Source: Syncephalis fuscata (taxonomy: Eukaryota > Zoopagomycota > Zoopagomycetes > Zoopagales > Piptocephalidaceae). Taken from it: a stretch of DNA of 64,000 nucleotides. The position numbers were made by a program, and so were the translations under genes. Shown piece after piece: positions 18 through 54,630 of this stretch (position 1 is its first letter; each line of letters starts with the position of its first letter). Under the pieces are notes generated by a model. It was not told where the DNA came from, ran no database searches, and saw nothing but the letters and a program-made list of their open reading frames with translations. Where the stretch lies: the NCBI GenBank assembly GCA_025786725.1, contig JAHLTZ010000022.1, positions 248,001-312,000 on the forward strand. Reading direction: 5' to 3'.

Positions 18-920
18 CTAACGTATACATGACTGTGAAAGACATTCAATAGAGGTGTAGGGAACAGTATTGGGATCCAGTGATGTATCTCTGTAGATTG
101 AATAGTGAGTTGAGTCTATTAAAAAGTAACTATTATAACTTACTCGGATGGTGTATAAATACGAACTTCTCTAAAATGTGAATCTTTACCATTTTGATGA
201 TTAGCTAATACGGCCAACTGAACAATATGAGCTCGTAACAATGTTTTCTCTCTATCATATTAATGTTATTTACACGGCTATTAAGGCTATTCACGCTATT
301 TTAACTTACTCGTTATTTGTATTGCGTAATGGAATGTTGACCCATCCAACGGGTTTATCAAGACTAATAAGATACATTTCCTATTAAAAGTATAAATACG
401 TTATAATACGATGTAAAATTACTTACTGATAGCTCATTGGGTCCACCACCAGCACGGATGGATATTTTGTGCGGTGTATAACTTTCATCCTCGGCAAATG
501 ATACATAAAATGATAATTGCTAATTATAGTATAGTATAGTATATTAATCACTCATTACTTTAGTATATCTAATAGTGCCACTTACTGCTAGGGTAAGAAG
601 ACGTGGAAATTGCATCGTAATTGTGTGTGGTGCTGGTTGTGGTGCATCCGATCTTATTATGACATGAGTAACCAATATATAATAAACTAACGACTACTAT
701 TACTTACTGCCAAAATGTTTCCAAATCACCGTTACGTACATTTTCTACGCCAAAATTCCGTTTAAAACTAGATACTGACCATAATGCTAGATCACCAACT
801 TCACGTAAACCATCTTCTTGTGGTAGATCTAGTGTTAAGGTTCTATTCAGTATAAATTGACTATGAATTACAGTGTTTTCGCATTAACTTACGCGTTATT
901 GTCACGTTAATTCTCGCCAT
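18..920 (-). CDS. APC10: Anaphase-promoting complex subunit 10 (APC10/DOC1), 7 exons
   Basis: Substrate-recognition co-factor of the APC/C ubiquitin ligase. It helps the co-activator bind degron substrates and promotes processive ubiquitination. Seven exons join in frame: 920-893, 828-708, 652-586, 519-427, 380-310, 251-144 and 90-18. The product is about 186 aa, close to the 185 aa of the human protein. The DOC domain motifs are readable: REVGDLALWSVSS near residue 16, then NGDLETFWQSD, DESYTPHKISIR, GWVNIPL and LANHQNGKDSHFREVRIYTP. The protein ends in Ile-Arg, the C-terminal IR tail that in this family docks on the TPR subunit CDC27. All donors are GTAAG-type. The start is the first ATG before the DOC domain and gives a short N-terminus. 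The identification rests on the ordered motifs and is firm. Confidence 0.93.
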
Positions 921-13429: not shown

Positions 13430-14636
13430 AAAGCATAATTTACAATAAATGAAACTAGTTTACAATGTCTGTTGTATATAGTCAGCTCTAACACTACTAC
13501 TTTTATTGGTTTCTGCGCTGGTAATGGCATTCAATTAGGATTGTTACTTAAATGTTTATACTCCAGTATAAATTCGTAGCCATATGTAAATAAAGACGAA
13601 CTTTAATTATATTTAGACTATTAGATGATTAAAATAACCAAATAAATTTATTAAACAAAATTTATCGCTCCTTTTTAATTTTTAATTGATTTATAGCAAT
13701 AACAAATAACAAATAACAGCTATTTGTACAAGTATACTTTGAAATAGTATTTTTATTAATGTTAAGCATGATTTCTATATTAAACCAGTAGTTCATATTA
13801 CTTTTGTATCCTAATCATTTGGACATTACAAAATTCGTAAAAATATGCTGAGCTATAATTGAAGATGACAATCAAAATACATAATTTGCATTAGTATTAT
13901 TGATATAGCTTGAAAGTAAAATAAGGTTTAGAGAAGTATAAAATATTTATTTATGTGTTGTGGTATAGTTAAAATAATGTTAATGGCAGTAACGGTAGTT
14001 TGAAGAGTCGAGGCTGGTTTAACGCCAAGCATGATTGTACTGACCACGGCAGCAACAACAACAAAAGCATCGACGACTCTGATGAATATTCTTGTGGTAA
14101 CTATTAAACCGGTAGAATTGGCGTAGATGAACCCAGAAAATGTGTGATGCCTCTACAGTTAGCATATGCACTTTCTGGCGAATAACAGGATCAACGCACT
14201 CCTGTTTCAAATATTAGCATGCAATTGTATAATGCCAGGCACGTCACACCGCCAGTGTTTCATGCTGTGCATCGTGTAACCATATGATACCAAGAGACCA
14301 TGCGCTAGTATAATTGCCAACATATAAATTTCAGTAATATTTACTTGCCAGCTGGTTCACCACACACACACTTGCTTGCCTATAACCTCTACCATACGCC
14401 TGGCGCGTAACTTCCACTTGTATTCGCTTTTATTTTTGAGTGTTGCCTGGTGCACACCTTGTAACTGTCCATTCGTCACTATCCGCTTAACCAACTTTCG
14501 GCTGGTCCGTAGTTTCTTTTTGTTTTTATATCCTTCTTTTTGTTTCTATTTCTTCGCTTTAGCCAATCATCAGCTGATTGTTAGCAGGCAATCAACCCCG
14601 TATATTATTATCTACAGTGATATTACACGTGTAAAA
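13430..14636. other. Intergenic, AT-rich
   Basis: 3' flank of the oxidoreductase gene and 5' flank of the secreted protein gene. Polyadenylation-like AATAAA signals occur near 13443 and 13588. The stretch from about 14340 onward is pyrimidine-rich leader, including a CAC run at 14360. The open frame that continues into 14376 is upstream of the preferred start of the next gene. Confidence 0.4.
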
Positions 14637-15878
14637 ATGCGTTGCGTTTCTTTTTGTATTTTAGCAACAAGCACACTAGTGCTTCTTGCTGTATCAACTG
14701 TACCCACCACCAATGCCGCTGTTATACCGTCTGCTGGATTGCAACGCTATTTGCTTCGTAGAGATTCTGACGAGGGTATAGTAGGACGTATTGCTACATC
14801 TGAGTTAAAGTCGGCATGGGATAATGTAGAGACGGATCCAGATCTTGTTCCATCAAAAACGGAAGTAAAGGCATATGCTGACTCGCCGTCGCCGTCTTCA
14901 AAGTTTTCAGATCCAGGTGATGCTGATGGTACCGGCCCAAATACGACGCCAACGCCATCAAGCACACAATACTCCAGCTCTACGTCTACTGCGTCCTCCA
15001 CTACTTCTTCTGCCTCAGCAACGGAGACTTCGACTCCAACTCCATCTAACGAGTCCAAGTCAAATAGCGCATCGGAATCATCCTCTACAACAACAACAAC
15101 AACCTCTACAGCCACCAGTTCATCATCATCCAGTCCTACCTCTACAGAATCCACAACATCGGCAAGCTCTACAGCTACCGGTTCTTCCTCCTCTTCTTCC
15201 AGTCCTACACCTACAGCAACAAATCATTCTACAATTTTAGACTTAATTCTAAAACAGCCACCACAGCAAATTCTAAAAAACAAATCTGCAAATTCTCACA
15301 ATGCAGAAATGACCGCTGTTTCGGCTCCAACTCCAAAGCCAACACATACCGACACTAGTTCTTCGGAAAGTCCCAAGCCAACAGAACATGCTACGGCAAA
15401 AATGGACGAAGCGCGTTCTATAGATGATATGCCTATACCAGAAAATATACTAAATGATGACATCATGACGGCAATAATTGGCACTAAACCAAAGTCGGCC
15501 AACACGGAGGATAAAGCGTCATATAGCAAGTCTAACTCTACCGATACAGCCGCACCCTCTCCTACTTCTAGTGCCACAGTCACAGCTACTGAGTCGCCAT
15601 CCAGTACTTCATCACCAGCCGCTGAGCAAACCAAATCCAATGATAAATCGGAAGGAAATTCTAAATCAGACAAACTCGTTCGAAGAAGTTTAGAAACGCC
15701 ACGATACATCGCAGACGACTCGTCATATACTGAAGAGTGTGCTCGTTTTGGCATTTGCGACTCCAAGCCTACCGAGAAATATTATGTTAAACAATGGACA
15801 CAAAGCCCAACACTTGATATGGCAGAATCCAACAATGCCAATGATTTAAACATTAATGAAACAGTTTCAGATAGCTAA
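14637..15878 (+). CDS. Secreted Ser/Thr-rich protein, function unknown
   Basis: Single exon, 413 aa from the ATG at 14637. The frame is open further upstream, but this ATG begins a good signal peptide (MRCVSFCILATSTLVLLAVS, cleavage likely around residue 27 after TTNAA). A dibasic Arg-Arg near residue 40 (LLRRDSDEG) could be a Kex2-type site. The central 100-250 residues are almost entirely Ser/Thr/Pro/Ala in short iterations (SSSSSPT, STATGSS), typical of heavily O-mannosylated fungal wall or extracellular proteins. The C-terminal part is less repetitive and holds one Cys pair (EECARFGICDS) and no GPI-like hydrophobic tail. No enzymatic domain is recognised. The compositional bias makes homology claims unsafe. 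Confidence 0.7.
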   Translation: MRCVSFCILATSTLVLLAVSTVPTTNAAVIPSAGLQRYLLRRDSDEGIVGRIATSELKSAWDNVETDPDLVPSKTEVKAYADSPSPSSKFSDPGDADGTGPNTTPTPSSTQYSSSTSTASSTTSSASATETSTPTPSNESKSNSASESSSTTTTTTSTATSSSSSSPTSTESTTSASSTATGSSSSSSSPTPTATNHSTILDLILKQPPQQILKNKSANSHNAEMTAVSAPTPKPTHTDTSSSESPKPTEHATAKMDEARSIDDMPIPENILNDDIMTAIIGTKPKSANTEDKASYSKSNSTDTAAPSPTSSATVTATESPSSTSSPAAEQTKSNDKSEGNSKSDKLVRRSLETPRYIADDSSYTEECARFGICDSKPTEKYYVKQWTQSPTLDMAESNNANDLNINETVSDS

Positions 15879-16642
15879 TATTTAGTTAATGACGATAGTT
15901 AAAATAAAATATATTAATGATTTAACTAATTACTGTATTAAACCTGTATTAATATAACTGTTTTATGGCCAATGCTAAACTAAATAACTTATACTTTTTT
16001 AGGTACAAATGTATAATAATGTAGCAAACAGCATTATATATTATCAAAAGTAAAAGACAAATATACGCTTTATCACTGTACTTATTACCATCTATTACAT
16101 TATTTATTATTATTATTATTATATATTTTTAAAAACTGTAATAGAAATAAGCTATATAACTTATTGGCTAGTTAGTATCTGCTAGTACAAATAACCTACT
16201 ATTTTGTTTTCTTCAATTAATTTTTAGATGTTATATATAGAATCATTGTATAAATGAATTCCATCCAATACTTTAATGTCAGCTGTTACAAGTATAATGT
16301 AAGCATGCATATTTCTGCTTGATTTATTGTCATAGCTGCTATCTAGAAATTTAAAAATCAGCTAAGCCTTAAATGGTTAGTGCTTGCTGTGTGACTCGCT
16401 GCTATTGTCTACCAAATCAAGTCTCTATTTGGAGCTGCCTGATACGTGTAGACTAGTATTTGAATACTACGCTTCATGCAATTTGATTAATATAAGCTAT
16501 TTTACAGTTGAGAAAATAGTAGTATTGATGACAAATGAAGTTATTTATTGATGAAAATGTTGTGTTGTATTACGTCACATAGTGCTTATTGCGTGGACAG
16601 CTCTCGGTCAATTCTGATAATATATTATTTGAAATCTCAAAG
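15879..16642. other. Intergenic, AT-rich
   Basis: 3' flank of the Ser/Thr-rich protein gene up to the left edge of the long inverted repeat. A short ATT tandem run lies at about 16105-16125. Nothing else recognised. Confidence 0.4.
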
Positions 16643-17283
16643 ATTGCATAGCATATAACATTCATATACTTGGTGCTATACATTTACAAATTCAATACGT
16701 TGCTTATTTCTGTAAAAATTTCCATGATGTTGCATTGAATGTACTTATAAACCAATCATTATATTTTGTAACTTAATGAATTACAACTGGTTTACGCATA
16801 ACAAAATACATTTGTACAAAAATCATAGTATAATGCATTAAACTTGTTGCTGAATTACCATTTTGCGCTGTTTAGAATGTATGCAAATATTAAAGTTTGC
16901 GTTAATAAAAAGACAACAAAGCTATTGCTATTTTTATAAAACCAACAGGCTTATGTTTACAAACTATTCAGTTTTATAACAAAAATACAGGTTGATATAC
17001 GCGCCCTGTATCATATGTACTGTATCATTGGCATTGCTGTTTCAAATGTTTGAATACTAAACAGATTGAAGCAAAGAACTAGGCTGCATACTATCATACT
17101 ATGGGCACATTAGTATACACACGCTCCAAATTGTCATGTGAACGTATCGCTATTGGTTCATATTGTATTTCAATGATATGGTTGATACAGCACATTCTTT
17201 GATATCTCAGCACGATCACAGTCTTAAATAGCCCATGAAATATACACATATATCTAGTAATATCAGTATCACATCTTGCTCTC

Positions 17284-17290
17284 TATAAAT
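17284..17290 (+). promoter_or_regulatory. TATA box of the arm-1 micro-exon gene
   Basis: TATAAAT sits 80 nt upstream of the expected initiation codon and just ahead of a CT-rich initiator-like tract (about 17296-17335). This places the transcript start shortly before the signal-peptide exon and argues against a distant upstream first exon. The same element in arm 2 is at 52061-52067 on the minus strand. Confidence 0.5.
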
Positions 17291-17370
17291 TACTCGCTAC
17301 TCTCTCTCTCTCTATACTCTCATCCTCTGCTTTTTGTTTTATTTGTTTGCCTCAACAAACTGATATCATC

Positions 17371-19811
17371 ATAAAGTCTTTTATTGCCGTTGTTTGCACT
17401 CTTCTCGTAGCTTTTGTGGCTACTACTTCCATAGTGGATGCCAAGCCAGCTTCTTTAATCCGTCGTGGTGTGTTGCAATTAAAATGAATATGCAATGTTA
17501 TTATGCTTACTGGTGCTACGGTTAATTGGTGATGATATTAGATAGTAAGTCGCATTTATGTATTGCAGATACAATACTTACTATATTTACATAACATAAT
17601 AAACATAATAAGCAGATGGTAAGTAATATTCTATATCAAATGACTATAAGTTAATTACACGCTGTTTGTTGCGTGTATCAACAACCTGATACTAACAGCT
17701 GGTAAGTGACATAATATATAAAGTATATATATATACTAACTACGTGCTATTTGTGGTGTTTATCACTAAATTAATAGTCTGTAAGTGGTATTCTATGCCA
17801 GTCAAATATACACTAGTTACGCGATATTTATTATGTGTATTAATAAAATGTTATTAATAGCCTGTAAGTGATGATGTATTTTAATTACTTATGCACTAAC
17901 TAAATACTATGTTCTGTGCATATCATCACTTAATACTGATAGGTGGTAAGGAATACTGCGCATTAGTTACCTATGTGCTAATTATATGTTGTTTATTGTG
18001 TGTATTAACAGATTAACCTTAATAGCTAGTAAGTAAAATTGGATATTAGGTGGCTATACACCAATCACATGCTATGTAACGTGTCTATTAACAACTTAAT
18101 ACTAATAGAGAGTAAGCAATATTGTGTATTAATCGACTATATATTATTTACATATTATTTATTGTGTGCATCAACAACTTAATATTAATAGTTTGTTAGT
18201 GATATTATAAAATGGCTGAATATTTATTAACAGCATATTTTTCACGACGTATTAACATTTCAATGCTAATAGTCAGTAATTAATATTGTATATTGTTTGT
18301 CTATATACTAATTAAATGCTATGCATTGCGTGTATCAACGTCTTAATGTCAATAGTGTGTAAGTGATGGTGTATATCAATTGTCTACGCGCTGATTAAAT
18401 GCGATGTAATGCGTTTATCAATGGCTTAACATCAATAGGCTGTAAGTACCATTACATACTAATTAAATGCTCACCAACTTCATGCTCATTTTGTGTATCA
18501 ACAATTTTATATTACTAGTTGGTAAGTAATACCACATATTAATTGACTATTCTCTAATCACTTAATATGTATTGTATAGCAACAATTTAATATTACTAGC
18601 TGGTAGGTAGTATTGTATGCCAATTATCTATACAATAATTATATATCATGTACCATTCATATTGATGCTTTAATATTAATAGGGCGCAAGTGTTATTGCA
18701 CAATAACTATCTATGCATTGATTAATACTGTGCTGCACATATCATCACTCAATACTAGTAGAAAGTAAGCAATATTGCGTATTAATTGCCTATAAACTGA
18801 CTAAATATTGCTCATTATATGTATCAACAGCTTAATATTGATAGAATACAAGTTACTGTACTTTATTTAACTATTTACTAATTGTATTTTCACTATACTT
18901 ATCGAAGATTTGGCATTAATAGGTCGTAAGTAATACTGTATTTCAGCTAGCTATAAACCAATTAATTACTATTTATTGTGTGTAGCAATAATTAAATATT
19001 AATAGTTTGTAAGTAATATTGTGTATTAATTGAATATGCACTAATCACATACTATGCATTGTGTGTGTGCCAACAACATAGTATTGCTAGCATATAAGTG
19101 ACACTGCGTATTCAGTAACTACGCATTAATTATATGTTATTATTGTGTGCATAAAAAACTTAATGTAATAGGCGGTAAGTGATATTATATATTGATTAAT
19201 TACACACTAATTACCGAATATTTATTGTGTATATTAATGGGGTGCTATAATAGGCCGTAAGTAGTAGTTTATGGCAAGTATTTATTTATCAATTAAATGT
19301 CCACTTTGCGCATCAGCGCTTCAATGTTAATAGACAGTAAGTGGTATTGTGCATTAATTCAATATGAACTGATTCTATGCCGTGTGTCATTTTACCAACA
19401 AATTAATATTAATAGCTGGTGGGTGATATTGTATATTACTTGACTATACACTAGGCATATGCTATGTATTGTGTGTAGCAACTTTTAGTATTAATAGGCC
19501 GTAAGTGACACTGTATTATAATTAACCATACACTAATTGCATGTTAATTATGCATACTAACAAACTGATACCAATAGCCTGTAAGTGATATTATATATTA
19601 ATTAATTATACACTAATTGCATGCTATTTATCGTGCATATTAATGACTTAATATTAATAGGCGGCGACACCGCATATTGACCGAGTCGTGTTAGTTATAT
19701 GTTAACTATGTGTACCAATGCTGTAATAACAATAGATTGTAAGTTATGTTGTATATCGATAGTTTATAAGTTACCTGTGTGGAATATGCTATTTTTGCTT
19801 ACAAAATAGAA
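17371..19811 (+). CDS. Micro-exon gene, copy 1: signal-peptide exon, 28 three-nucleotide exons, terminal stop
   Basis: Proposed 30-exon gene for a secreted peptide of about 60 aa. Exon 1 (17371-17467) encodes a hydrophobic signal peptide (KSFIAVVCTLLVAFVATTS) and a short pro-segment ending Arg-Arg. Then come 28 exons of exactly 3 nt, starting at 17542, 17616, 17699, 17778, 17861, 17943, 18026, 18109, 18192, 18273, 18356, 18439, 18519, 18600, 18683, 18762, 18845, 18923, 19006, 19091, 19172, 19254, 19334, 19416, 19498, 19578, 19661 and 19736. Introns are 71-82 nt and mutually similar. All 29 acceptors are AG; donors are 25 GT, 2 GC, 1 AC and 1 AT. All introns fall in phase 1. The joined tail has cysteines spaced C-x5-C-x5-C-x2-C-x5-C, and TAA TAA forms on entering the exon at 19810. 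The expected start codon is ATA, not ATG. Structure seen; splicing and function inferred. Confidence 0.68.
17542..19738 (+). repeat. Tandem array of about 83-nt intron/triplet units, copy 1
   Basis: Unit-to-unit spacing runs from 74 to 85 nt, with 83 most common. The unit begins GTAAGTGATATT, carries AT-rich degenerate sequence with a TTGTGTGTATCAAC-like block, and ends TTAATATTAATAG. The three bases between that AG and the next GTAAGT vary freely (over 20 different triplets among 28), while both flanks stay conserved. The array is therefore a tandem repeat whose only hypervariable slot is the putative exon. Confidence 0.9.
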
Positions 19812-20078
19812 TAATCAAGACATTCAATACATTGGCATTGGTAGTATAATTAAACTGATAGTTCAACACGCTTTAAATGCGAATTCAATGAAAAGCAAGA
19901 CTACTTACAACCACCGGTCAGCTCATTCATATATCAAGTTTCAGCCAATGCTCCAGTTTATTCACCTTTAATTGATAACATCATTATATTGCTAACAAGT
20001 ATGCACTTGCTTGTACCTATTCAGCTATACAAGTTTGCAATAATAAACACATGCTTTTATTATGTATATTTGATTAAG

Positions 20079-24217: not shown

Positions 24218-27200
24218 TCAATTACGAGTCAAGTTCCTTTTTGCGCTCCAACGATTGCTTTTGCACAAGAGCATAGTAAGACCCTTGTTGCGAAGCAAGT
24301 CGTTATGTTTGCCGTGTTCAAGAATACGGCCATTTTTGAATACATAAATGATATCGGCATCTTGAATGGTCGACAAACGATGAGCAATACTAATGGTGGT
24401 ACGACCAACTGCGGCACGGTCCAATGCTTCTTGGACCACCTTCTCGGATTCAGTATCAAGAGCGGATGTTGCTTCATCAAGTAGCAATAAGCGTGGGTTG
24501 CGAATAATAGCACGCGCAATAGCAACACGCTGCTTCTGGCCACCAGACAATTGCGAGCCACGCTCGCCAACACCAGTGTCAAAACCATCAGGCAGCGACA
24601 TAACAAAGTCGTAAATGTTAGCATCACGTGCCGCTTGGTGAACATCCTCAATCGTGGCATCCGGTTTGCCATAAGAAATATTTTCGGCAATCGACATGTC
24701 GAACAATACTGGTTCTTGGCCGACCAGCGCAATTTCAGAACGCAATTCAGATAGTTGCCAGTCGCGTGTCTCAAGACCATCGATGGAGACGACGCCCTTT
24801 TCAGTATCGTAGAAGCGCTCAATTAAACCAACCATAGTTGATTTACCACAGCCAGATGAACCGACAAGGGCAATTGTCTTGCCTTGAGGGACCTTCAAGT
24901 CGATACCGCGCAACACCTTAACCGACTTACGTGCTGGGTAGCGGAAGTGAACAGAGTCGGCAGTAACTTCACCAGTAAAGTTGGTAACTGTCTTGCCATC
25001 GGGATTGGTTGGATCGATTTCAGAGACGCGATCAAGCAATTCAAAGATTTCCAACGCGGCAATCTTTGCCTTAGCAATATCAGGTGCAAAGCCAGAAGCT
25101 TGACTGACGGAAATAGCTGTAAAGATAACGCAGAACATAACCTTGAACGTCTTTTCAACATCATATTCACCACTAAGAACCAAACGGGAGCCATAGTAAA
25201 GAGCAACCGATTGAATGAAGAAAGAAAGACATTGCGAGGCACCAAAAGTAATCGAGGAGACAAGCGAGGAGCGAACAGACATTGTGTGTGGGCCTTCAAT
25301 GGCGCGGTTGTATAGTGCCATAAAGGTATCTTCACGACCAAGAGCGGCGACAGTACGGATGTTTTCAACGGCTTCGCAAGCAACGGACGCTGAGCTTTCG
25401 TAGGCCTTCTTTGTCTTCTTGTTAAGGTTGAACTGCATACGCACATTCAACATATTCGCAATAGCAAGTGATGGCACGCAAGCCAACACAACAAGAGTCA
25501 TCTTCCAGCCATACGAGAATGCAAGTGCCAAACCAACAACCATGGTCGTCGTAATTTGAACGAACGTACCAATAACACGACCGGCAATACCGTTAACCAT
25601 TTCAGCTTCAGTTGAAAGCTTCGCGCAAAGAATACCAGTGCTGTTAAGGCGGTCATCAAAGAAGCCCATTTCCTGTCGAAGCATTGCGGCAAAGGTAAAT
25701 CTACGAATACGATGGATAAGATGTTCACCGCTAATGATAAACAGGCCGATGCGGCAGAAGACGGCAAAGAAAGTGGCAATACCTAGAATAACAAACATAA
25801 GTGCCCAAAAGTCGGCATCCTTACGCATTTGTACAAGGTTTTGATTTGAAAGTGCTTTGAGCACTTCGGAAAAGATGATGGCAAAGGACGGCATAATAGC
25901 ACCATCGACCATTGAACCAACAAGTGCAGGAATAATGTAGCGCATTTCAGGCATATTAAGGCGAATAACACGGAGGAAAGGTGCCGACTGTTTGCTACGT
26001 TCTTCGCGGATACGCTGGCGTACCTCTTCAACATCCTTTTCAGACATAACAGTATCTTTTGTTTTGGCGTAGGTGAGCTGTTTAGTCAATGGCTGGTCGA
26101 CATCAAGTACCACGGCATCTGGATCAGTTGCACCTTCATCTTCTGAATCGTCAGCACCGCCAAGTGAAGGCTCTTGTGCGCGTTCGTTATCCTTTTCAGT
26201 GCGCAAACGCTGTGCCTGGACAAGGTTGGCGTAAAGGCCATTACGAGCAAGTAGTTCGTCGTGTTGGCCCACCTCGTAAATCTTACCACGATTCATTACG
26301 ACAATTTTATCGGCATCGCGAATTGTCGATAGACGATGGGCAATAACAATGGTGGTACGGCCAGCGGCAGCACGATCCAATGCATCTTGCACCAATTTCT
26401 CCGATTCAGTATCGAGAGCAGACGTGGCTTCATCAAGCAAAAGAATACGTGGATTACGTACGAGAGCACGAGCAATAGCAATACGTTGCTTCTGACCACC
26501 CGATAAAAGTGCACCCTTTTCACCAACAAGCGTGTCGTAACCTTTAGGCAAGGACATAATAAAGTCATGTACATTTGCATTGCGACAAGCTTGTTCGATT
26601 TCTTCTTGTGTCGGCTCTTTCTCGTGACCATCCGCATGAGCACAGCCCCATAGGATGTTTTCCTTGATAGTTGTTTGGAAAAGAACTGGCTCTTGGCCGA
26701 CAAGGCCAATATGTTGACGCAAATAGCGTAGATTAATGTCTTCAATTGGCGTGCCATCTAATTTAATTGTACCGCTTTCTGGAGAGTAGAATCGCTCCAA
26801 TAAAGAAACAATGGTGGATTTACCACTACCCGACGAGCCGACCAAAGCCACTGTTTGGCCAGATTGAATATCCAAACTATAGTTACGTAGAATTTGGACA
26901 TCTGGACGTGATGGATAAGAAAAGTTAACATCGCGGATTTCAATGTTGCCATTAATGTTTTCAGGACGTAGGCCACTCTCGGAGCGATAATCAATCTTGG
27001 AGTCACGGTCGATAACAGAGAAGATCTTGTAAGCAGCACCTTGCGCAGTTTGAACGGAACTCATTGGTGTTGCGGCCATACCAATGGTCATTGTACCAAT
27101 AATGAGCGCGAAAAATACGTTCAATACTTGTTGCACATCCATCTCTTTATCTGCAATCTGCTTTGAACCAAACCAGAAGCCCAAGCCGTATGAGAAGAAA

Positions 27201-28456
27201 AGCACGCCCAACATTGTACCAACTGATAGACCGACGGCAAAGCCTTTCTTTTTGCCCTTCTCCAATGCCATATCGAGCTTGGATTCGTAGCGACGCACTT
27301 CACGTTCCTGTGCACCAAATGCAGATACTGTTTTGATACCAGAGAGTACTTCTTCAGCCACGGAACCAGCTTTAGCATAGGCATTCTGACCGCCTGTAAC
27401 AGCAGCGGTAACAATGCGACCCATAATAGCACCAGCAGTGGCAAGTACTGGGAAGACACACAGTAATACGAGAGCCATCTTCCATCCTTTAACAAAAGCA
27501 ATAATAAAACCAGCCAAAAAGGTGCAGACCGATTGAATAATAATGCCAACCTTTTCTGAAACGCCTTCTTGGACCAAATTGACATCACCAGTAATACGTG
27601 AGGTCAAGTCACCAGTGGGCGTAGCGTCAAACCAAGAGATTTCCTGGCGAATGATGCTGGCAAAGTAGCGACGACGTAGCTCGGATGTTTGATTTTCACC
27701 AGAAAGCATCCACATCGATTGCTGTAGATAGGCAACGACAAAAGTAACAACACCAAGGATAACAAAGTAGATAACAAATTTCTTAACATCATGATCGAAG
27801 ACATCACGTTGTTCAGCAGTAGTATTACCACCTTGTATAGCTGATTGGCCACCATAAATAGTAAACGTGGCCATAAGACTTGAGAAAATGATTGTCATGA
27901 TCGGCGTAGAAACACCAAGTGCCACAGAAGCGAGCGATGCCACTAAAATGTAGAATTTATCAAGTGCCGTTGCAAAACGAAACAGTTGGAAAAAGGTAAC
28001 TTTGCCATAAGCATCGGCCTTATTACCATTCTTGCCGTCTTCTTCTTCTTCTTCTTCATTATCAAGATTGGGCTTGCCACGACCACGTAGACGATCAAAA
28101 AAGCCACGTTTGGCTTGTTCTTCTTCACGCTTTTTACGGCGCTCCTCACGAAGACGGCGAGCTTCGCGTACTTCGGCCATCTTAATAGCAGTAGCCTGAT
28201 CTTCTGTAAGCATGGCAGAGCCGGTGGATTTGGCTGTAGCCGTCTTTTTCAAATCCTTGACTGGCAGCTCGTGCTTTACATCTTCTGTTGAGGACCGGGC
28301 ATCTTCAGTGCTATCACTATAGTCGCCATTGTTGCCACCACTAACGTAATGGGTATCGGTAATTTCCTCAACGACTTCTTCGGATACAACAACACGACGT
28401 GGGTCGGTTGAAGTAGGCGTAGGGTCGATATTATTACTATTACTATTATCTGACAT
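24218..28456 (-). CDS. ABC transporter, full-length ABCB/P-glycoprotein (MDR) type
   Basis: ATP-driven exporter of the ABCB family; the plasma membrane is likely. Single exon, about 1412 aa, with layout TMD-NBD-TMD-NBD. The N-terminal about 160 residues are charged and cytosolic. TMD1 spans roughly 165-480 (FFQLFRFATALDKFYILVAS onward). NBD1 has Walker A GSSGSGKST, signature LSGGQKQR and Walker B ILLLDEATSALD. An acidic linker (DDSEDEGATDPD) precedes TMD2. NBD2 has GSSGCGKST, LSGGQKQR and LLLLDEATSALD. Both sites look catalytically intact. The last about 20 residues are out of frame: restoring one T in GGTCTTACT near 24281 gives the usual ending GLYYALVQKQ and a stop at 24222. The substrate cannot be told from sequence. 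Confidence 0.95.
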   Translation of the reverse strand: MSDNSNSNNIDPTPTSTDPRRVVVSEEVVEEITDTHYVSGGNNGDYSDSTEDARSSTEDVKHELPVKDLKKTATAKSTGSAMLTEDQATAIKMAEVREARRLREERRKKREEEQAKRGFFDRLRGRGKPNLDNEEEEEEDGKNGNKADAYGKVTFFQLFRFATALDKFYILVASLASVALGVSTPIMTIIFSSLMATFTIYGGQSAIQGGNTTAEQRDVFDHDVKKFVIYFVILGVVTFVVAYLQQSMWMLSGENQTSELRRRYFASIIRQEISWFDATPTGDLTSRITGDVNLVQEGVSEKVGIIIQSVCTFLAGFIIAFVKGWKMALVLLCVFPVLATAGAIMGRIVTAAVTGGQNAYAKAGSVAEEVLSGIKTVSAFGAQEREVRRYESKLDMALEKGKKKGFAVGLSVGTMLGVLFFSYGLGFWFGSKQIADKEMDVQQVLNVFFALIIGTMTIGMAATPMSSVQTAQGAAYKIFSVIDRDSKIDYRSESGLRPENINGNIEIRDVNFSYPSRPDVQILRNYSLDIQSGQTVALVGSSGSGKSTIVSLLERFYSPESGTIKLDGTPIEDINLRYLRQHIGLVGQEPVLFQTTIKENILWGCAHADGHEKEPTQEEIEQACRNANVHDFIMSLPKGYDTLVGEKGALLSGGQKQRIAIARALVRNPRILLLDEATSALDTESEKLVQDALDRAAAGRTTIVIAHRLSTIRDADKIVVMNRGKIYEVGQHDELLARNGLYANLVQAQRLRTEKDNERAQEPSLGGADDSEDEGATDPDAVVLDVDQPLTKQLTYAKTKDTVMSEKDVEEVRQRIREERSKQSAPFLRVIRLNMPEMRYIIPALVGSMVDGAIMPSFAIIFSEVLKALSNQNLVQMRKDADFWALMFVILGIATFFAVFCRIGLFIISGEHLIHRIRRFTFAAMLRQEMGFFDDRLNSTGILCAKLSTEAEMVNGIAGRVIGTFVQITTTMVVGLALAFSYGWKMTLVVLACVPSLAIANMLNVRMQFNLNKKTKKAYESSASVACEAVENIRTVAALGREDTFMALYNRAIEGPHTMSVRSSLVSSITFGASQCLSFFIQSVALYYGSRLVLSGEYDVEKTFKVMFCVIFTAISVSQASGFAPDIAKAKIAALEIFELLDRVSEIDPTNPDGKTVTNFTGEVTADSVHFRYPARKSVKVLRGIDLKVPQGKTIALVGSSGCGKSTMVGLIERFYDTEKGVVSIDGLETRDWQLSELRSEIALVGQEPVLFDMSIAENISYGKPDATIEDVHQAARDANIYDFVMSLPDGFDTGVGERGSQLSGGQKQRVAIARAIIRNPRLLLLDEATSALDTESEKVVQEALDRAAVGRTTISIAHRLSTIQDADIIYVFKNGRILEHGKHNDLLRNKGLTMLLCKSNRWSAKRNLTRN

Positions 28457-31196: not shown

Positions 31197-32590
31197 CAAT
31201 AAACGATTGACAATTTAAATCGACTAGTTTAGTTTTATAGAAATCTATGCTAAAAAACAAGTCATTGCAGACATACTAACCTAGACCGAATTTGACAGAA
31301 ATTAACTGATGCTGATGCAGCTAAAACAACAGTGTTAAATAAAATGAAACGCAATGAAGCAAAAGGCATTGTATACGACATCTGATAAAGCCGTAATATG
31401 CGTGTGTTAATTACTTTTAACATAAACTAGTAATTGTTAAGCATTAAATGATACTTTAGTATTGATATAGTTTATAATGCCAATTATTTTTACTGACAAA
31501 TGCTTACAATTATACACCGGATTTTAAATGTAATTACACAACCGCTAAACAAATTAACTATTGCAATCGTTGTTTTAAGTACTTATTACAATAGGCAACC
31601 GATATTCTATACTGTTACGATAATAGAAAACAAAATAGCCTTTATTCGTTGGCTATTAATAATATTGTAGATATTTACAAGACAAATGGAGATTTACAAT
31701 CTCAATTAAACAGTTTTAACTTTGTAAATAACGAATAGAACTAGAGACGGATAAATAGTACTTTGAATAAGATGTGATAAGTATAGAATATGCTGACGTA
31801 CAATGATAAAATATAGAAGAGAAGGGAGATGAGTGAATGGGTTAAAGTTGAAGAAATAAGCATGATATAAACAGCAATACTGTGAATCATTTAATCACCA
31901 CCAGTATAATACCACCAAACTGTTATGGGCAATAGTATTTTGTAAAAATAGCTGTTGGTAAAGTATAATGGCCTTGTAATAAAAAAGCCTCAATAGCGTA
32001 TAAATGATGTCGCCATTGTTTCATTAATGGCATAAGCAAATATAGAATTGTATTGGTATGGTAGACAGAATAGATAGTATGAATGTGATGATTATATGAT
32101 ATTGTTTATTAGGTATTAGTTATATTATTAATATGCATTGTCCCTGCGTTAAAACCTTTTTACTTGAATTATGACAACGTCAATAAAGCAACAGTACTAT
32201 AATATACTTTCAAATCTATACAATATAGTAACATTTGAACAAAAGCCAAATAGTCAGAGATAAAAACAGCAATTATTTTATTTATCGGTGCTATTGTTGA
32301 ATAACTAACAATAGAATGCATATTCAATATGTAAATACCGTCAAGTGCAAAGAAAAAGAAAGGGAGATGTAATAATGTAGATTGTATGTTGTTGTTAATA
32401 TGAGTGAATTAATACAATGTGAAATAAAAGCATCATTAATGTGAATAAAAAGTACGTCATTTGACACCAAACTACTCATTATCATAAAACATATATTCAG
32501 TATAATAGCAAGTATGTTAAAAGATCAATTAAAAAAATAAAAGTCATTTGACTTCAAAAATTGCTTATTATCATAGAACATGTCCATCAG
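31197..32590 (+). repeat. Dispersed repeat, copy A (1.39 kb)
   Basis: Begins CAATAAACGATTGACAATTT and is nearly identical, in the same orientation, to 53072-54460. The part from about 31757 to 32492 is also present at 43535-44275. It has no long open frame or terminal inverted repeats and ends in short tandem AATAAAAGTCATTTGAC units. It abuts the 3' end of the AEC transporter gene. Identity by eye is well above 98 percent, so the copies are recent. Confidence 0.9.
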
Positions 32591-32774
32591 TTTCAATAGT
32601 AGCTGTAATAGTTAATTTATTAAATTTAATAATGATTTGATACCAAAAAATGTAATGATAAAACAAGTTCATCATTTACTAGCGACCATGTTTATAGATC
32701 ACTTAGTATTCAAAATAAAAGTAGTTTTGTTGACAAAAAAAAGCCTTTCAGCTTCCTATATACTGGTGATGGTA

Positions 32775-43534: not shown

Positions 43535-44275
43535 AATAGTACTTTGAATAAGATGTGATAAGTATAGAATATGCCGACGTACAATGATAAAATATAGAAG
43601 AGAAGGGAGATGAGTGAATGGGTTAAAGTTGAAGAAATAAGCATGATATAAACAGCAATACTGTGAATCATTTAATCACCACCAGTATAATGCCATCAAA
43701 CTGTTATGGGCAATAGTATTTTGTAAAAATAGCTGTTGGTAAAGTATAATGGCCTTGTAATAAAAAAGCCTCAATAGCGTATAAATGATGTCGCCATTGT
43801 TTCATTAATGGCATAAGCAAATATAGAATTGTATTGGTATGGTAGACAGAATAGATAGTATGAATGTGATGATTATATGATATTGTTTATTAGGTATTAG
43901 TTATATTATTAATATGCATTGTCCCTGCGTTAAAACCTTTTTACTTGAATTATGACAACGTCAATAAAGCAACAGTACTATAATATACTTTCGAATCTAT
44001 ACAATATAGTAACATTTGAACAAAAGCCAAATAGTCAGAGATAAAAACAGCAATTATTTTATTTATCGGTGCTATTGTTGAATAACTAACAATAGAATGC
44101 ATATTCAATATGTAAATACCGTCAAGTGCAAAGAAAAAGAAAGGGAGATGTAATAATGTAGATTGTATGTTGTTGTTAATATGAGTGAATTAATACAATG
44201 TGAAATAAAAGCATCATTAATGTGAATAAAAAGTACGTCATTTGACACCAACTACTCATTATCATAAAACATATT
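43535..44275 (+). repeat. Dispersed repeat, copy B (0.74 kb)
   Basis: Matches the distal part of copies A (about 31757-32492) and C, beginning AATAGTACTTTGAATAAG and stopping at ACATAT. It differs by a few substitutions (for example GCCGACG against GCTGACG at the start) and single-base indels. It lacks the proximal half present in A and C and the terminal AATAAAAGTCATTTGACTTC unit, so it is 5'- and 3'-truncated relative to them. Confidence 0.9.
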
Positions 44276-44456
44276 ATTACAAAACATTGACTAAAATTTA
44301 ATTAAATAATGCTTTATTATGTGTCAAGAAATAGCCCTTTACGCTCAGCGAATAGGACAAGGAATGCTTTCAAGAAAAGGAAAGAAAATAAATTAGCACA
44401 TGTTATTGTGCCATCAAGCTGTCTAAAGGCCTTTTTGATTAAATATCACAGTCATC

Positions 44457-49274: not shown

Positions 49275-49542
49275 CTTAATCAAATATACATAATAAAAGC
49301 ATGTGTTTATTATTGCAAACTTGTATAGCTGAATAGGTACAAGCAAGTGCATACTTGTTAGCAATATAATGATGTTATCAATTAAAGGTGAATAAACTGG
49401 AGCATTGGCTGAAACTTGATATATGAATGAGCTGACCGGTGGTTGTAAGGTAGTCTTGCTTTCCATTGAATTCGCATTTAAAGCATGTTGAACTATCAGT
49501 TTAATTATACTACCAATGCCAATGTATTGAATGTCTTGATTA

Positions 49543-51982
49543 TTCTATTTTGTAAGCAAAAATAGCATATTCCACACAGGTAACTTATAAACTATCGATA
49601 TACAACATAACTTACAATCTATTGTTATTACAGCATTGGTACACATAGTTAACATATAACTAACACGACTCGGTCAATATGCGGTGTCGCCGCCTATTAA
49701 TATTAAGTCATCAATATGCACGATAAATAGCATGCAATTAGTGTATAATTAATTAATATATAATATCACTTACAGGCTATTGGTATCAGTTTGTTAGTAT
49801 GCATAATTAACATGCAATTAGTGTATGGTTAATTATAATACAGTGTCACTTACGGCCTATTAATACTAAAAGTTGCTACACACAATACATAGCATATGCC
49901 TAGTGTATAGTCAAGTAATATACAATATCACCCACCAGCTATTAATATTAATTTGTTGGTAAAATGACACACGGCATAGAATCAGTTCATATTGAATTAA
50001 TGCACAATACCACTTACTGTCTATTAACATTGAAGCGCTGATGCGCAAAGTGGACATTTAATTGATAAATAAATACTTGCCATAAACTACTACTTACGGC
50101 CTATTATAGCACCCCATTAATATACCAATAAATATTCGGTAATTAGTGTGTAATTAATCAATATATAATATCACTTACCGCCTATTACATTAAGTTTTTT
50201 ATGCACACAATAATAACATATAATTAATGCGTAGTTACTGAATACGCAGTGTCACTTATATGCTAGCAATACTATGTTGTTGGCACACACACAATGCATA
50301 GTATGTGATTAGTGCATATTCAATTAATACACAATATTACTTACAAACTATTAATATTTAATTATTGCTACACACAATAAATAGTAATTAATTGGTTTAT
50401 AGCTAGCTGAAATACAGTATTACTTACGACCTATTAATGCCAAATCTTCGATAAGTATAGTGAAAATACAATTAGTAAATAGTTAAATAAAGTACAGTAA
50501 CTTGTATTCTATCAATATTAAGCTGTTGATACATATAATGAGCAATATTTAGTCAGTTTATAGGCAATTAATACGCAATATTGCTTACTTTCTACTAGTA
50601 TTGAGTGATGATATGTGCAGCACAGTATTAATCAATGCATAGATAGTTATTGTGCAATAACACTTGCGCCCTATTAATATTAAAGCATCAATATGAATGG
50701 TACATGATATATAATTATTGTATAGATAATTGGCATACAATACTACCTACCAGCTAGTAATATTAAATGTTGCTATACCAATACATATTAAGTGATTAGA
50801 GAATAGTCAATTAATATGTGGTATTACTTACCAACTAGTAATATAAAATTGTTGATACACAAAATGAGCATGAAGTTGGTGAGCATTTAATTAGTATGTA
50901 ATGGTACTTACAGCCTATTGATGTTAAGCCATTGATAAACGCATTACATCGCATTTAATCAGCGCGTAGACAATTGATATACACCATCACTTACACACTA
51001 TTGACGTTAAGACGTTGATACACGCAATGCATAGCATTTAATTAGTATATAGACAAACAATATACAATATTAATTACTGACTATTAGCATTGAAATGTTA
51101 ATACGTCGTGAAAAATATGCTGTTAATAAATATTCAGCCATTTTATAATATCACTAACAAACTATTAATATTAAGTTGTTGATGCACACAATAAATAATA
51201 TGTAAATAATATATAGTCGATTAATACACAATATTGCTTACTCTCTATTAGTATTAAGTTGTTAATAGACACGTTACATAGCATGTGATTGGTGTATAGC
51301 CACCTAATATCCAATTTTACTTACTAGCTATTAAGGTTAATCTGTTAATACACACAATAAACAACATATAATTAGCACATAGGTAACTAATGCGCAGTAT
51401 TCCTTACCACCTATCAGTATTAAGTGATGATATGCACAGAACATAGTATTTAGTTAGTGCATAAGTAATTAAAATACATCATCACTTACAGGCTATTAAT
51501 AACATTTTATTAATACACATAATAAATATCGCGTAACTAGTGTTATTTGACTGGCATAGAATACCACTTACAGACTATTAATTTAGTGATAAACACCACA
51601 AATAGCACGTAGTTAGTATATATATATACTTTATATATTATGTCACTTACCAGCTGTTAGTATCAGGTTGTTGATACACGCAACAAACAGCGTGTAATTA
51701 ACTTATAGTCATTTGATATAGAATATTACTTACCATCTGCTTATTATGTTTATTATGTGTATGTAAATATAGTAAGTATTGTATCTGCAATACATAAATG
51801 CGACTTACTATCTAATATCATCACCAATTAACCGTAGCACCAGTAAGCATAATAACATTGCATATTCATTTTAATTGCAACACACCACGACGGATTAAAG
51901 AAGCTGGCTTGGCATCCACTATGGAAGTAGTAGCCACAAAAGCTACGAGAAGAGTGCAAACAACGGCAATAAAAGACTTTAT
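49543..51982 (-). CDS. Micro-exon gene, copy 2
   Basis: Same structure as copy 1 on the opposite strand. Exon 1 is 51982-51886, the first 3-nt exon is 51811-51809, the last 3-nt exon (ATT) is 49618-49616, and the terminal exon begins at 49544, where the stop forms. Total span is 2440 nt against 2441 in copy 1. The expected start codon is again ATA. In copy 2 the sequence after the terminal acceptor also has a long open frame in another phase (to 49128), which copy 1 lacks because of a one-base difference. The phase-1 model does not use it. Confidence 0.66.
49616..51811 (-). repeat. Tandem array of about 83-nt intron/triplet units, copy 2
   Basis: On the plus strand this appears as CTTAC, three variable bases, then CTATTAATATTAA, repeated 28 times. 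Unit order, triplets and unusual donors (GCAAGT, ACAAGT, ATAAGT, GCGACA) are the same as in copy 1. The array was therefore duplicated as a whole, not rebuilt. Confidence 0.9.
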
Positions 51983-52708
51983 GATGATATCAGTTTGTTG
52001 AGGCAAACAAATAAAACAAAAAGCAGAGGATGAGAGTATAGAGAGAGAGAGTAGCGAGTAATTTATAGAGAGCAAGATGTGATACTGATATTACTAGATA
52101 TATGTGTATATTTCATGGGCTATTTAAGACTGTGATCGTGCTGAGATATCAAAGAATGTGCTGTATCAACCATATCATTGAAATACAATATGAACCAATA
52201 GCGATACGTTCACATGACAATTTGGAGCGTGTGTATACTAATGTGCCCATAGTATGATAGTATGCAGCCTAGTTCTTTGCTTCAATCTGTTTAGTATTCA
52301 AACATTTGAAACAGCAATGCCAATGATACAGTACATATGATACAGGGCGCGTATATCAACCTGTATTTTTGTTATAAAACTGAATAGTTTGTAAACATAA
52401 GCCTGTTGGTTTTATAAAAATAGCAATAGCTTTGTTGTCTTTTTATTAACGCAAACTTTAATATTTGCATACATTCTAAACAGCGCAAAATGGTAATTCA
52501 GCAACAAGTTTAATGCATTATACTATGATTTTTGTACAAATGTATTTTGTTATGCGTAAACCAGTTGTAATTCATTAAGTTACAAAATATAATGATTGGT
52601 TTATAAGTACATTCAATGCAACATCATGGAAATTTTTACAGAAATAAGCAACGTATTGAATTTGTAAATGTATAGCACCAAGTATATGAATGTTATATGC
52701 TATGCAAT

Positions 52709-53071
52709 TTTCAACATTTAAAATGGCAACTAGTTGAGGTTGGTTGATAATCAGTTGTGTAATAAAGGCTCTTGTAGTGTAATGCACTACAGCATTTTTA
52801 CCAATAATTAATTCTATGCAGCCACTAATTCCATCAAATGCTTAGCTGTGAGATAATCTGTAATTGCCAAATTAAATGCAACACAATGTATAAACGCTAT
52901 AATACGTATATAAGACACTCCAGATGAATACTATCAAGTTTGGATGCACAGTAATAGCAAAATGCGCAATAACAGTAATTATTTAAAATCCAACTGATGC
53001 TAATGCCTAAAAAAGTAATTCCTAGACAAATCAAACAAATTACTTACAGAAAAACAAAATAGATTAGATAT
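52709..53071. other. Unique spacer between inverted-repeat arm 2 and dispersed repeat C
   Basis: AT-rich. Near 52980-53045 there is weak resemblance to the sequence just upstream of copy A (AATAATT..CCTAG-like words), suggesting an older, longer version of that repeat. No gene seen. Confidence 0.35.
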
Positions 53072-54460
53072 CAATAAACGATTGACAATTTAAATCGACT
53101 GGTTTAGTTTTATAGAAATCTATGCTAAAAAACAAGTCATTGCAGACATACTAACCTAGACCGAATTTGACAGAAATTAACTGATGCTGATGCAGCTAAA
53201 ACAACAGCGTTAAATAAAATGAAACGCAATGAAGCAAAAGGCATTGTATACGACATCTGATAAAGCCGTAATATGCGTGTGTTAATTACTTTTAACATAA
53301 ACTAGTAATTGTTAAGCATTAAATGATACTTTAGTATTGATATAGTTTATAATGCCAATTATTTTTACTGACAAATGCTTACAATTATACACCGGCTTTA
53401 AATGTAATTACACAACCGCTAAACAAATTAACTATTGCAATCGTTGTTTTAAGTACTTATTACAATAGGCAACCGATATTCTATACTGTTACGATAATAG
53501 AAAACAAAATAGCCTTTATTGTTGGCTATTAATAATATTGTAGATATTTACAAGACAAATGGAGATTTACAATCTCAATTAAACAGTTTTAAATTTGTAA
53601 ATAACGAATAGAACTAGAGACGGATAAATAGTACTTTGAATAAGATGTGATAAGTATAGAATATGCTGACGTACAATGATAAAATATAGAAGAGAAGGGA
53701 GATGAGTGAATGGGTTAAAGTTGAAGAAATAAGCATGATATAAACAGCAATACTGTGAATCATTTAATCACCACCAGTATAATACCACAAACTGTTATGG
53801 GCAATAGTATTTTGTAAAAATAGCTGTTGGTAAAGTATAATGGCCTTGTAATAAAAAAGCCTCAATAGCGTATAAATGATGTCGCCATTGTTTCATTAAT
53901 GGCATAAGCAAATATAGAATTGTATTGGTATGGTAGACAGAATAGATAGTATGAATGTGATGATTATATGATATTGTTTATTAGGTATTAGTTATATTAT
54001 TAATATGCATTGTCCCTGCGTTAAAACCTTTTTACTTGAATTATGACAACGTCAATAAAGCAACAGTACTATAATATACTTTCGAATCTATACAATATAG
54101 TAACATTTGAACAAAAGCCAAATAGTCAGAGATAAAAACAGCAATTATTTTATTTATCGGTGCTATTGTTGAATAACTAACAATAGAATGCATATTCAAT
54201 ATGTAAATACCGTCAAGTGCAAAGAAAAAGAAAGGGAGATGTAATAATGTAGATTGTATGTTGTTGTTAATATGAGTGAATTAATACAATGTGAAATAAA
54301 AGCATCATTAATGTGAATAAAAAGTACGTCATTTGACACCAAACTACTCATTATTATAGAACATATATTCAGTATAATAGCAAGTATGTTAAAAGATCAA
54401 TTAAAAAAATAAAAGTCATTTGACTTCAAAATTGCTTATTATCATAGAACATGTTCATTA
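53072..54460 (+). repeat. Dispersed repeat, copy C (1.39 kb)
   Basis: Full-length match to copy A in the same orientation, with scattered one-base gaps and substitutions. It ends about 170 bp before the start codon of the TPR gene, so it occupies that gene's promoter region, whereas copies A and B lie beside gene 3' ends. Confidence 0.9.
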
Positions 54461-54630
54461 GTAAAACGGTAAATTAATAGAGATATTATACAATAAAAAG
54501 TCAATACAGGTGTAATCATAGAATGTGTTTGTTAATAAAATTTAAAATGTATTAACCACATAATGTTTAAACTGCAAATAATTTTGATACTAAATTACTT
54601 TTTATTTCATATATTCTAACAAAAGAAAGA

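Follow-up and report, generated by a model that had tools for sequence, protein, structure and literature searches.

The genome of Syncephalis fuscata very probably contains a large gene family whose putatively secreted, cysteine-rich peptides are each specified by an ordered series of exons of three nucleotides, separated by phase-1 introns. One such gene lies in the window, i.e., the stretch of 64,000 nt that was analyzed (contig JAHLTZ010000022.1, positions 248,001 to 312,000 of the forward strand), and intact members of the family are present elsewhere in the genome. The reading frame that is formed by joining neighboring triplets across the introns is under selection genome-wide.

The array gene of the window is located on the plus strand. 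Its exon 1 (17371..17467, 97 nt) starts with ATA, encodes a hydrophobic leader followed by a pro-segment with Arg-Arg at its end, and stops in phase 1. Intron 1 (17468..17541, 74 nt, donor GTGTGT) precedes an array of 28 three-nucleotide exons and 27 introns of 71-82 nt (17542..19738), in which the triplets were located by script. The micro-exons start at positions 17542, 17616, 17699, 17778, 17861, 17943, 18026, 18109, 18192, 18273 (first to tenth), 18356, 18439, 18519, 18600, 18683, 18762, 18845, 18923, 19006, 19091 (11th to 20th), 19172, 19254, 19334, 19416, 19498, 19578, 19661 and 19736 (21st to 28th). A last intron of 71 nt running from GTAAGT to AATAG (19739..19809) leads to the terminal exon and 3′ part (19810..20078), whose first two positions (19810-19811) complete the stop codon TAA. 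Position 20078 is the end of a duplicated block and not a mapped transcript end.

The original prediction had described 28 exons of exactly 3 nt behind a signal-peptide-like exon 1 between 17371 and 19811, and this count was reproduced. The same is true for its splice sites when recounted: all 29 introns end in AG, 25 of the 29 donors are GT, 17 are exactly GTAAGT, and the introns measure 71-82 nt (n = 29). The four non-GT donors are GC-AAGT behind micro-exon 15 (18686..18687), AC-AAGT behind micro-exon 17 (18848..18849), AT-AAGT behind micro-exon 20 (19094..19095) and GC-GACA behind micro-exon 27 (19664..19665). That such introns are normal-sized for this genome was not confirmed, as two ordinary introns of one tubulin gene, placed solely by the ends of tblastn matches, measure about 224 and 248 nt. 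The frame also needed correction: the introns are in phase 1, and each triplet therefore completes one codon with its first two bases and opens the following codon with its third. The strict unit motif AGNNNGTAAGT occurs 40 times on the two strands of the window, against a mean of 2.15 and a maximum of 9 in shuffled sequence.

A second copy of the whole gene, absent from the original prediction, is present in inverted orientation about 30 kb away (49275..52724, minus strand, exon 1 start at 51982). The duplicated blocks (16627-20078 and 49275-52724) align over a length of 3455 with 99.5% identity, and the inverted copy has the same triplets and the same odd donors as the first. With one difference in 540 positions of the donor and acceptor blocks and one in 1554 positions of the intron interiors, the two copies differ too little to judge their relative rates. 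For this window pair, we consider it probable that a former array gene lost its start, suffered damage to its donors and was duplicated after this decay, leaving two pseudogenes. The predicted start is ATA in both copies where the relatives have ATG (window exon 1 was compared with exon 1 of L009-L012, L014, L015, L028-L031 and L034-L037), no in-frame ATG is found within the open stretch upstream of exon 1, and the lesions are common to both copies. It is the ATA start together with the four non-GT donors that marks the window copies as probably decayed members. On the other side, none of the 28 triplets interrupts the spliced frame, which is closed immediately by the stop at the junction of the last triplet and the terminal exon, GC donors also occur in intact members (4 of 162 introns), and near-cognate starts are possible.

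Array units are numerous in the genome. Consecutive pairs of the unit motif (AGNNNGTAAGT-60..75-AGNNNGTAAGT) were found 2873 times (1221 forward and 1652 reverse), compared to three times for a control with the reversed pattern (1 forward, 2 reverse). A search with the exon-1 peptide returned 336 candidates. Scores were obtained for 150 of them; all 150 are listed at an E-value of 3.6e-8 or better, near-identical copies included, and share one leader that is hydrophobic by eye. The open frame is at most 43 aa long in 85 of the 150 scored matches, and twelve of these short-frame loci were examined. Eight of them were picked by exon 1 alone (L028-L031, L034-L037) and arrays are present in all eight; the other four (L009, L010, L014, L015) came from the array pattern. 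In the opposite direction, the leader exon lies upstream of all six arrays of at least three units that were found by the pattern only (L009-L012, L014, L015), two of which (L011, L012) combine a long frame with an array. L013 has no chain of three units and was left out. Two loci (L031, L034) show exon 1, one ATC triplet, a gap of about 0.9-1 kb and then the array again, which may reflect an inserted element or a long intron. Similar-looking array pairs were also seen at 476k/533k (inverted) and 575k/610k (inverted) of contig C1 and at 226k/245k (direct) of contig C2.

Exon lengths were determined by parsing five non-redundant loci (L010, L014, L028, L030, L035) with a small per-base length penalty. 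When any length between 1 and 45 nt was allowed, 150 of the 157 micro-exons were 3 nt long, five were 6 nt and two were 4 nt; the latter two have an ambiguous AGAG acceptor, and the remaining 155 are all of 3 or 6 nt. Restricting the parse to multiples of three gave 150 exons of 3 nt and seven of 6 nt for the same loci. The leader exon of the parsed loci is 94-97 nt long and ends with CGTCGTG, CGTCGTGGTA or CGTCGTGATG before GTATGT, i.e., in phase 1. Arrays range from about 20 to 42 exons of 3 nt with a few of 6 nt, and introns are mostly about 57-85 nt, with a last intron of up to 107 nt. Six loci (L010, L014, L015, L028, L029, L035) parse from end to end, and their products are cysteine-rich open reading frames reaching the terminal exon; with L014 and L015 aside, these parses agree under free exon length or differ at one AGAG acceptor. 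In phase 1, L010, L014, L028, L029 and L035 are free of stops through 31-42 introns and have a stop in the terminal exon. Among these intact members, L014 (at C2:225.3k) has 42 predicted introns and L029 (on C154) has 35. The parse in multiples of three is incomplete for the 16 entries as a whole: L009, L011, L031, L034 and L036 stopped early, L012 needed a 15-nt exon, L037 has a doubtful 9-nt exon, and no terminal exon was identified for L030. The units of both window entries were listed by hand, since the parser placed a 21-nt exon across the AC donor and thereby introduced stops.

The triplets are taken to be spliced and translated on the evidence of the reading frame, in which stops are avoided and cysteines enriched across the introns. 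A stop codon arises across an intron when a triplet ending in T is followed by one beginning with AA, AG or GA. Of the 2873 genome-wide pairs, 819 have a first triplet with T as its last base. The second triplet begins with AA or AG in 366 of the 2873 pairs and with GA in 127, and the corresponding stop combinations occur eight times (104.3 expected) and not at all (36.2 expected), together eight observed stops against 140.5 expected (Fisher p 2.7e-66). A T followed by GT or GC, which gives cysteine, is found 368 times, with 198 expected from the 695 second triplets that begin with GT or GC. Since these pairs include near-identical copies, the p-values are too small and a reduced set of 11 loci is safer. 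This set contains 11 of 16 sequences, with the near-duplicates removed (the second window copy, L009, L011, L015 and L029). Among its 288 triplets, no stop is formed in 255 adjacent joins (12.8 expected) and cysteine is formed 36 times (20.7 expected).

The frame itself was distinguished in six arrays with 192 triplets, a set from which L012, L031, L034, L036 and L037 were also dropped for an incomplete or doubtful parse. Phase 0 contains one stop in 192 codons, phase 1 none in 186 and phase 2 twelve in 186. Shuffling the order of the triplets yields on average 11.6 stops and 17.5 cysteines in phase 1, where 0 and 32 were observed, and not one of 2000 shuffles equaled the observed phase-1 stop or cysteine count; in phase 2, the 12 observed stops compare with an average of 13.0 after shuffling. 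Stops are likewise few in phase 0 (one in 192, with 2.6 expected from composition, and one in 288 in the 11-locus set), so that a low number of stops does not by itself pick the frame and the order-shuffle test does. Reading the triplets as codons in their own right, i.e., in phase 0, gives few stops and amphipathic-looking peptides. This candidate was rejected: exon 1 ends in phase 1, and the order-dependent stop avoidance, the cysteine enrichment and the shared cysteine spacing all sit in the frame that straddles the introns.

The same statistics bear on the order in which the triplets are joined. Any micro-exon could in principle be skipped without a change of frame, 155 of the 157 in the freely parsed loci being 3 or 6 nt long, and combinatorial splicing could then create many peptide isoforms per gene. 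We regard this as very unlikely. Joins that skip one triplet should avoid stops as well under combinatorial splicing, but in the 11 loci 13 stops were observed in 222 joins at lag 2 (11.1 expected), 13 in 197 at lag 3 (10.0 expected) and 9 in 175 at lag 4 (8.7 expected), and cysteine enrichment is limited to lag 1. Genome-wide, T followed by AA or AG occurs 111 times at lag 2 versus eight times at lag 1, the lag-2 margins being uncounted and the lag-2 figure therefore having no exact expectation. As skipped joins show no avoidance of stops, splicing should be sequential, and selection seems to act on the neighbor-to-neighbor join only. Against a strictly sequential reading, the eight T-AA or T-AG joins do exist in the genome.

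The introns of the arrays have the donor, the AG acceptor and the conserved branch/acceptor block of ordinary GT-AG spliceosomal introns. Each unit is flanked by strong signals, GTAAGT as the donor and TTTAATATTAATAG as the branch/acceptor block; among the 162 introns of the five parsed loci, 158 have GT donors and four have GC donors, which are the donors that the parser favors. Over 263 units, the three triplet positions contain 0.12, 0.17 and 0.01 bits of information and the donor and acceptor bases up to 1.94 bits, although these units were selected by a pattern and the conservation of their donors is in part by construction. Two pairs of recent duplicates (L010/L029 and L014/L015, pooled) allow the rates of change to be compared with less of this bias. 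Substitutions number 6 in 1540 positions of the donor and acceptor blocks and 132 in 4314 positions of the intron interiors (p 1.2e-11), so that the splice signals have accumulated changes at about one eighth of the rate of the interiors. The triplets differ at 9 of 231 positions, no more slowly than the introns (p 0.44). In L010/L029, the six triplet changes alter five residues, as judged from a reading of the parsed sequences. The window copies, as a third pair, were left out of the pool for having too few differences and a faulty parse, and L011/L012 and L009 were not compared. Within one array, introns are about 0.62-0.74 identical depending on lag, and the introns of L014 and L035 have a mean identity of 0.68, compared to 0.54 after shuffling in both cases (identities were taken from four loci, exon counts from five). 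This identity above the shuffled baseline indicates that the units of an array share ancestry. L015 is one unit longer than L014 (42 versus 41 micro-exons).

Examples of the mature part after splicing are GTVAECKTCLSHCTRGGDTKKFCSIQCSHNYFPAQC... (L029), DAIEDCRRGRAACFKKCQSTWRDSASLEYRSCSMDCASYWRIC... (L014) and AGGSEECRVCLENCKKNGWSAFWCHTWSTCSRAC... (L035). The family also comprises intronless members. In four longer-frame loci (L032, L033, L038, L039), the coding region that follows the leader is not interrupted, and in L032, L033 and L038 the leader and a cysteine-rich peptide are encoded in a single unbroken frame. The 3′ sequence of the array terminal exon recurs, by eye, in all four. The motif C-x2-C-x3-C, which was picked after seeing the data, is present in three of six arrays (0.095 expected with shuffled triplets) and also in intronless L033, L038, P0121 and P0127. 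The peptide RRAV(E/A)PLAKR is common to intronless P0128 and the spliced product of the L012 array, its first RR being encoded by exon 1, and L012 is also the only one of nine spliced products with a match at an E-value of 0.01 among 16 intronless or public family peptides. L012 is the array form of a cysteine-free subfamily that also contains P0128 and P0133; the mature part has no cysteines, and in its members the leader is followed by Ala-Val-x-Pro and a region with abundant Ala, Leu, Lys or Pro.

A search for the L029 mature peptide in contiguous form gave nothing at an E-value of 10 or better, an empty answer that proves little. All 14 matches of a protein search at an E-value of 0.1 belong to S. 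fuscata. Pfam gave no hit above cut-off for five proteins and two below it to unrelated families (zf-FCS_1, E 0.022; Cys_box, E 0.0011), and a PDB search gave weak matches only (best E 0.28). AlphaFold2 predicts one intronless mature peptide to be helical, with a pLDDT of 82 in one of five models and 50-57 in the others, and this prediction is not relied on.

The core of the original prediction, a mature part composed of consecutive 3-nt exons that are spliced in order, is thus supported by the frame statistics and the conservation of the splice signals, as well as by the leader, the cysteine spacing and the 3′ end that its products have in common with intronless paralogs. The whole array might instead be removed as a composite intron, with a protein made of exon 1 and the terminal exon. 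Both of these exons are conserved and skipping the array would be mechanically simple, but such removal leaves the stop avoidance and cysteine enrichment between neighboring triplets unexplained, just as the cysteine spacing shared with the intronless paralogs, and we consider it improbable to an even greater degree than combinatorial splicing. That the array is a non-coding tandem repeat or satellite merely resembling splice sites can practically be dismissed: the array is indeed a repeat (its introns are about 70% alike versus 54% after shuffling, and TRF reports an 83-nt repeat in parts of the second window copy), but a satellite would not account for frame-specific avoidance of stops (0 of 255 joins) and cysteine enrichment across gaps of 80 nt, for triplets almost without positional information between near-invariant splice signals, for the conservation of these signals in duplicates, or for the leader exon upstream of all six pattern-fetched arrays.

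For the family of sequentially spliced triplets, we propose the following course of expression. Exon 1 supplies a leader, which is conserved and resembles a signal peptide, together with a short pro-segment that has Arg-Arg at its end, and it stops one base into a codon. The phase-1 introns would split each codon as N-NN, with the complete codon existing solely in the spliced RNA. They would be removed singly and in order by intron definition, the Arg-Arg would presumably be cleaved by a Kex2-type protease, and the secreted peptide may act where the mycoparasite contacts its fungal host, S. fuscata being a species that grows on other fungi. Arrays may gain or lose whole units of an intron plus a triplet, possibly through recombination between introns, which would add or remove one residue without a frameshift; a difference of this kind was seen in one case, the L014/L015 pair. 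If the arrays are a working architecture and no relic, each codon could serve as a recombination cassette in an arsenal that evolves residue by residue: unequal exchange between introns would insert, delete or swap single residues in frame, with some 20-40 triplets spliced in order at high fidelity. We hold this wider picture tentatively, at slightly less than an even chance.

Micro-exon genes have most of their coding sequence in very short exons, of 36 nt or less. The array genes resemble this class in that coding in their mature region is mostly confined to such exons (of 157 internal exons, 150 have just 3 nt) and internal exons are multiples of three (155 of 157). For schistosomes, one account gives 35 micro-exon genes (MEGs), with most exons of 15 bp, introns from 100 to almost 5000 bp, and a minimum exon size of 6 bp in its main text and a range of 3-81 in its abstract (PMC10526429). 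In both systems, proteins of a parasite that are secreted, or predicted to be so in S. fuscata, are encoded largely by very short exons, most of which are multiples of three. In contrast to the schistosome MEGs, the internal exons of S. fuscata are almost all 3 nt long, most introns fall at about 57-85 nt, the genome has at least 150 exon-1 sequences, many of them leading arrays, and nearly every mature codon is split. Homology to MEG proteins was not found, either by Pfam above cut-off or by the protein search with its exclusively S. fuscata matches.

The exons of the aphid bicycle genes measure tens of nucleotides. The bicycle genes are described as a big, fast-evolving family of putative effectors with a mean of about 17 exons per gene; their internal exons are unusually small, and nearly all of these begin at codon position 2 (PMC9168663). 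The S. fuscata arrays resemble them in their uniform exon phase and their start at codon position 2, a resemblance and not a homology. The bicycle genes differ in their larger exons and in their occurrence in insects, and a sequence relation is not expected. Single microexons in plants and fungi (e.g., in Trichoderma Xlr2) are very short exons recognized by the spliceosome, as proposed here, but they are isolated inside ordinary genes, unlike the S. fuscata arrays. SP7-like effectors of arbuscular mycorrhizal fungi are secreted proteins encoded by repeated exon-intron units, with exons of tens of nucleotides that encode repeats. In S. fuscata, by contrast, each exon is as long as a single codon, and the triplets do not repeat each other. 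Searches of open-licence PMC texts, among them PMC10526429, PMC9168663 and PMC11121469, listed no gene of consecutive 3-nt exons, and those aimed at single-codon or consecutive microexons gave two papers on RPS24.

With an intron in nearly every mature codon, the lower limit of gene architecture would be moved by a whole family and not by one exceptional gene. As 3 nt is too short for exon definition, these genes would put intron definition and the fidelity of splicing to an extreme test in nature: at an accuracy of 99% for each of 42 introns, about 65% of the messages would be correct (0.99^42). The arrays also point to a way for a secreted arsenal to add or drop residues one at a time while keeping the frame, and their likeness to genes of blood flukes and aphids raises the question why secreted genes of host interaction adopt short exons of uniform phase. 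The family also illustrates how standard annotation can fail. In the public S. fuscata models P0124 and P0131, the leader seems, by eye, to run into an unspliced array intron, and at least these two array genes are probably misannotated.

Several other features were observed in the window. Three places (31197-32591, 53072-54462 and 43535-44278) contain a repeat of some 1.4 kb with 99% identity, one copy being partial, and one of the copies starts about 350 bases beyond the block of the second array gene. Upstream of the first array gene, an open reading frame on the plus strand (14376-15878) encodes a Ser/Thr-rich product with Arg-Arg after a leader-like stretch; the product is probably secreted or located at the surface. 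An ABC transporter is encoded at 24218-28456, which is 85% identical to that of Syncephalis plumigaleata and 83% identical to that of S. pseudoplumigaleata.
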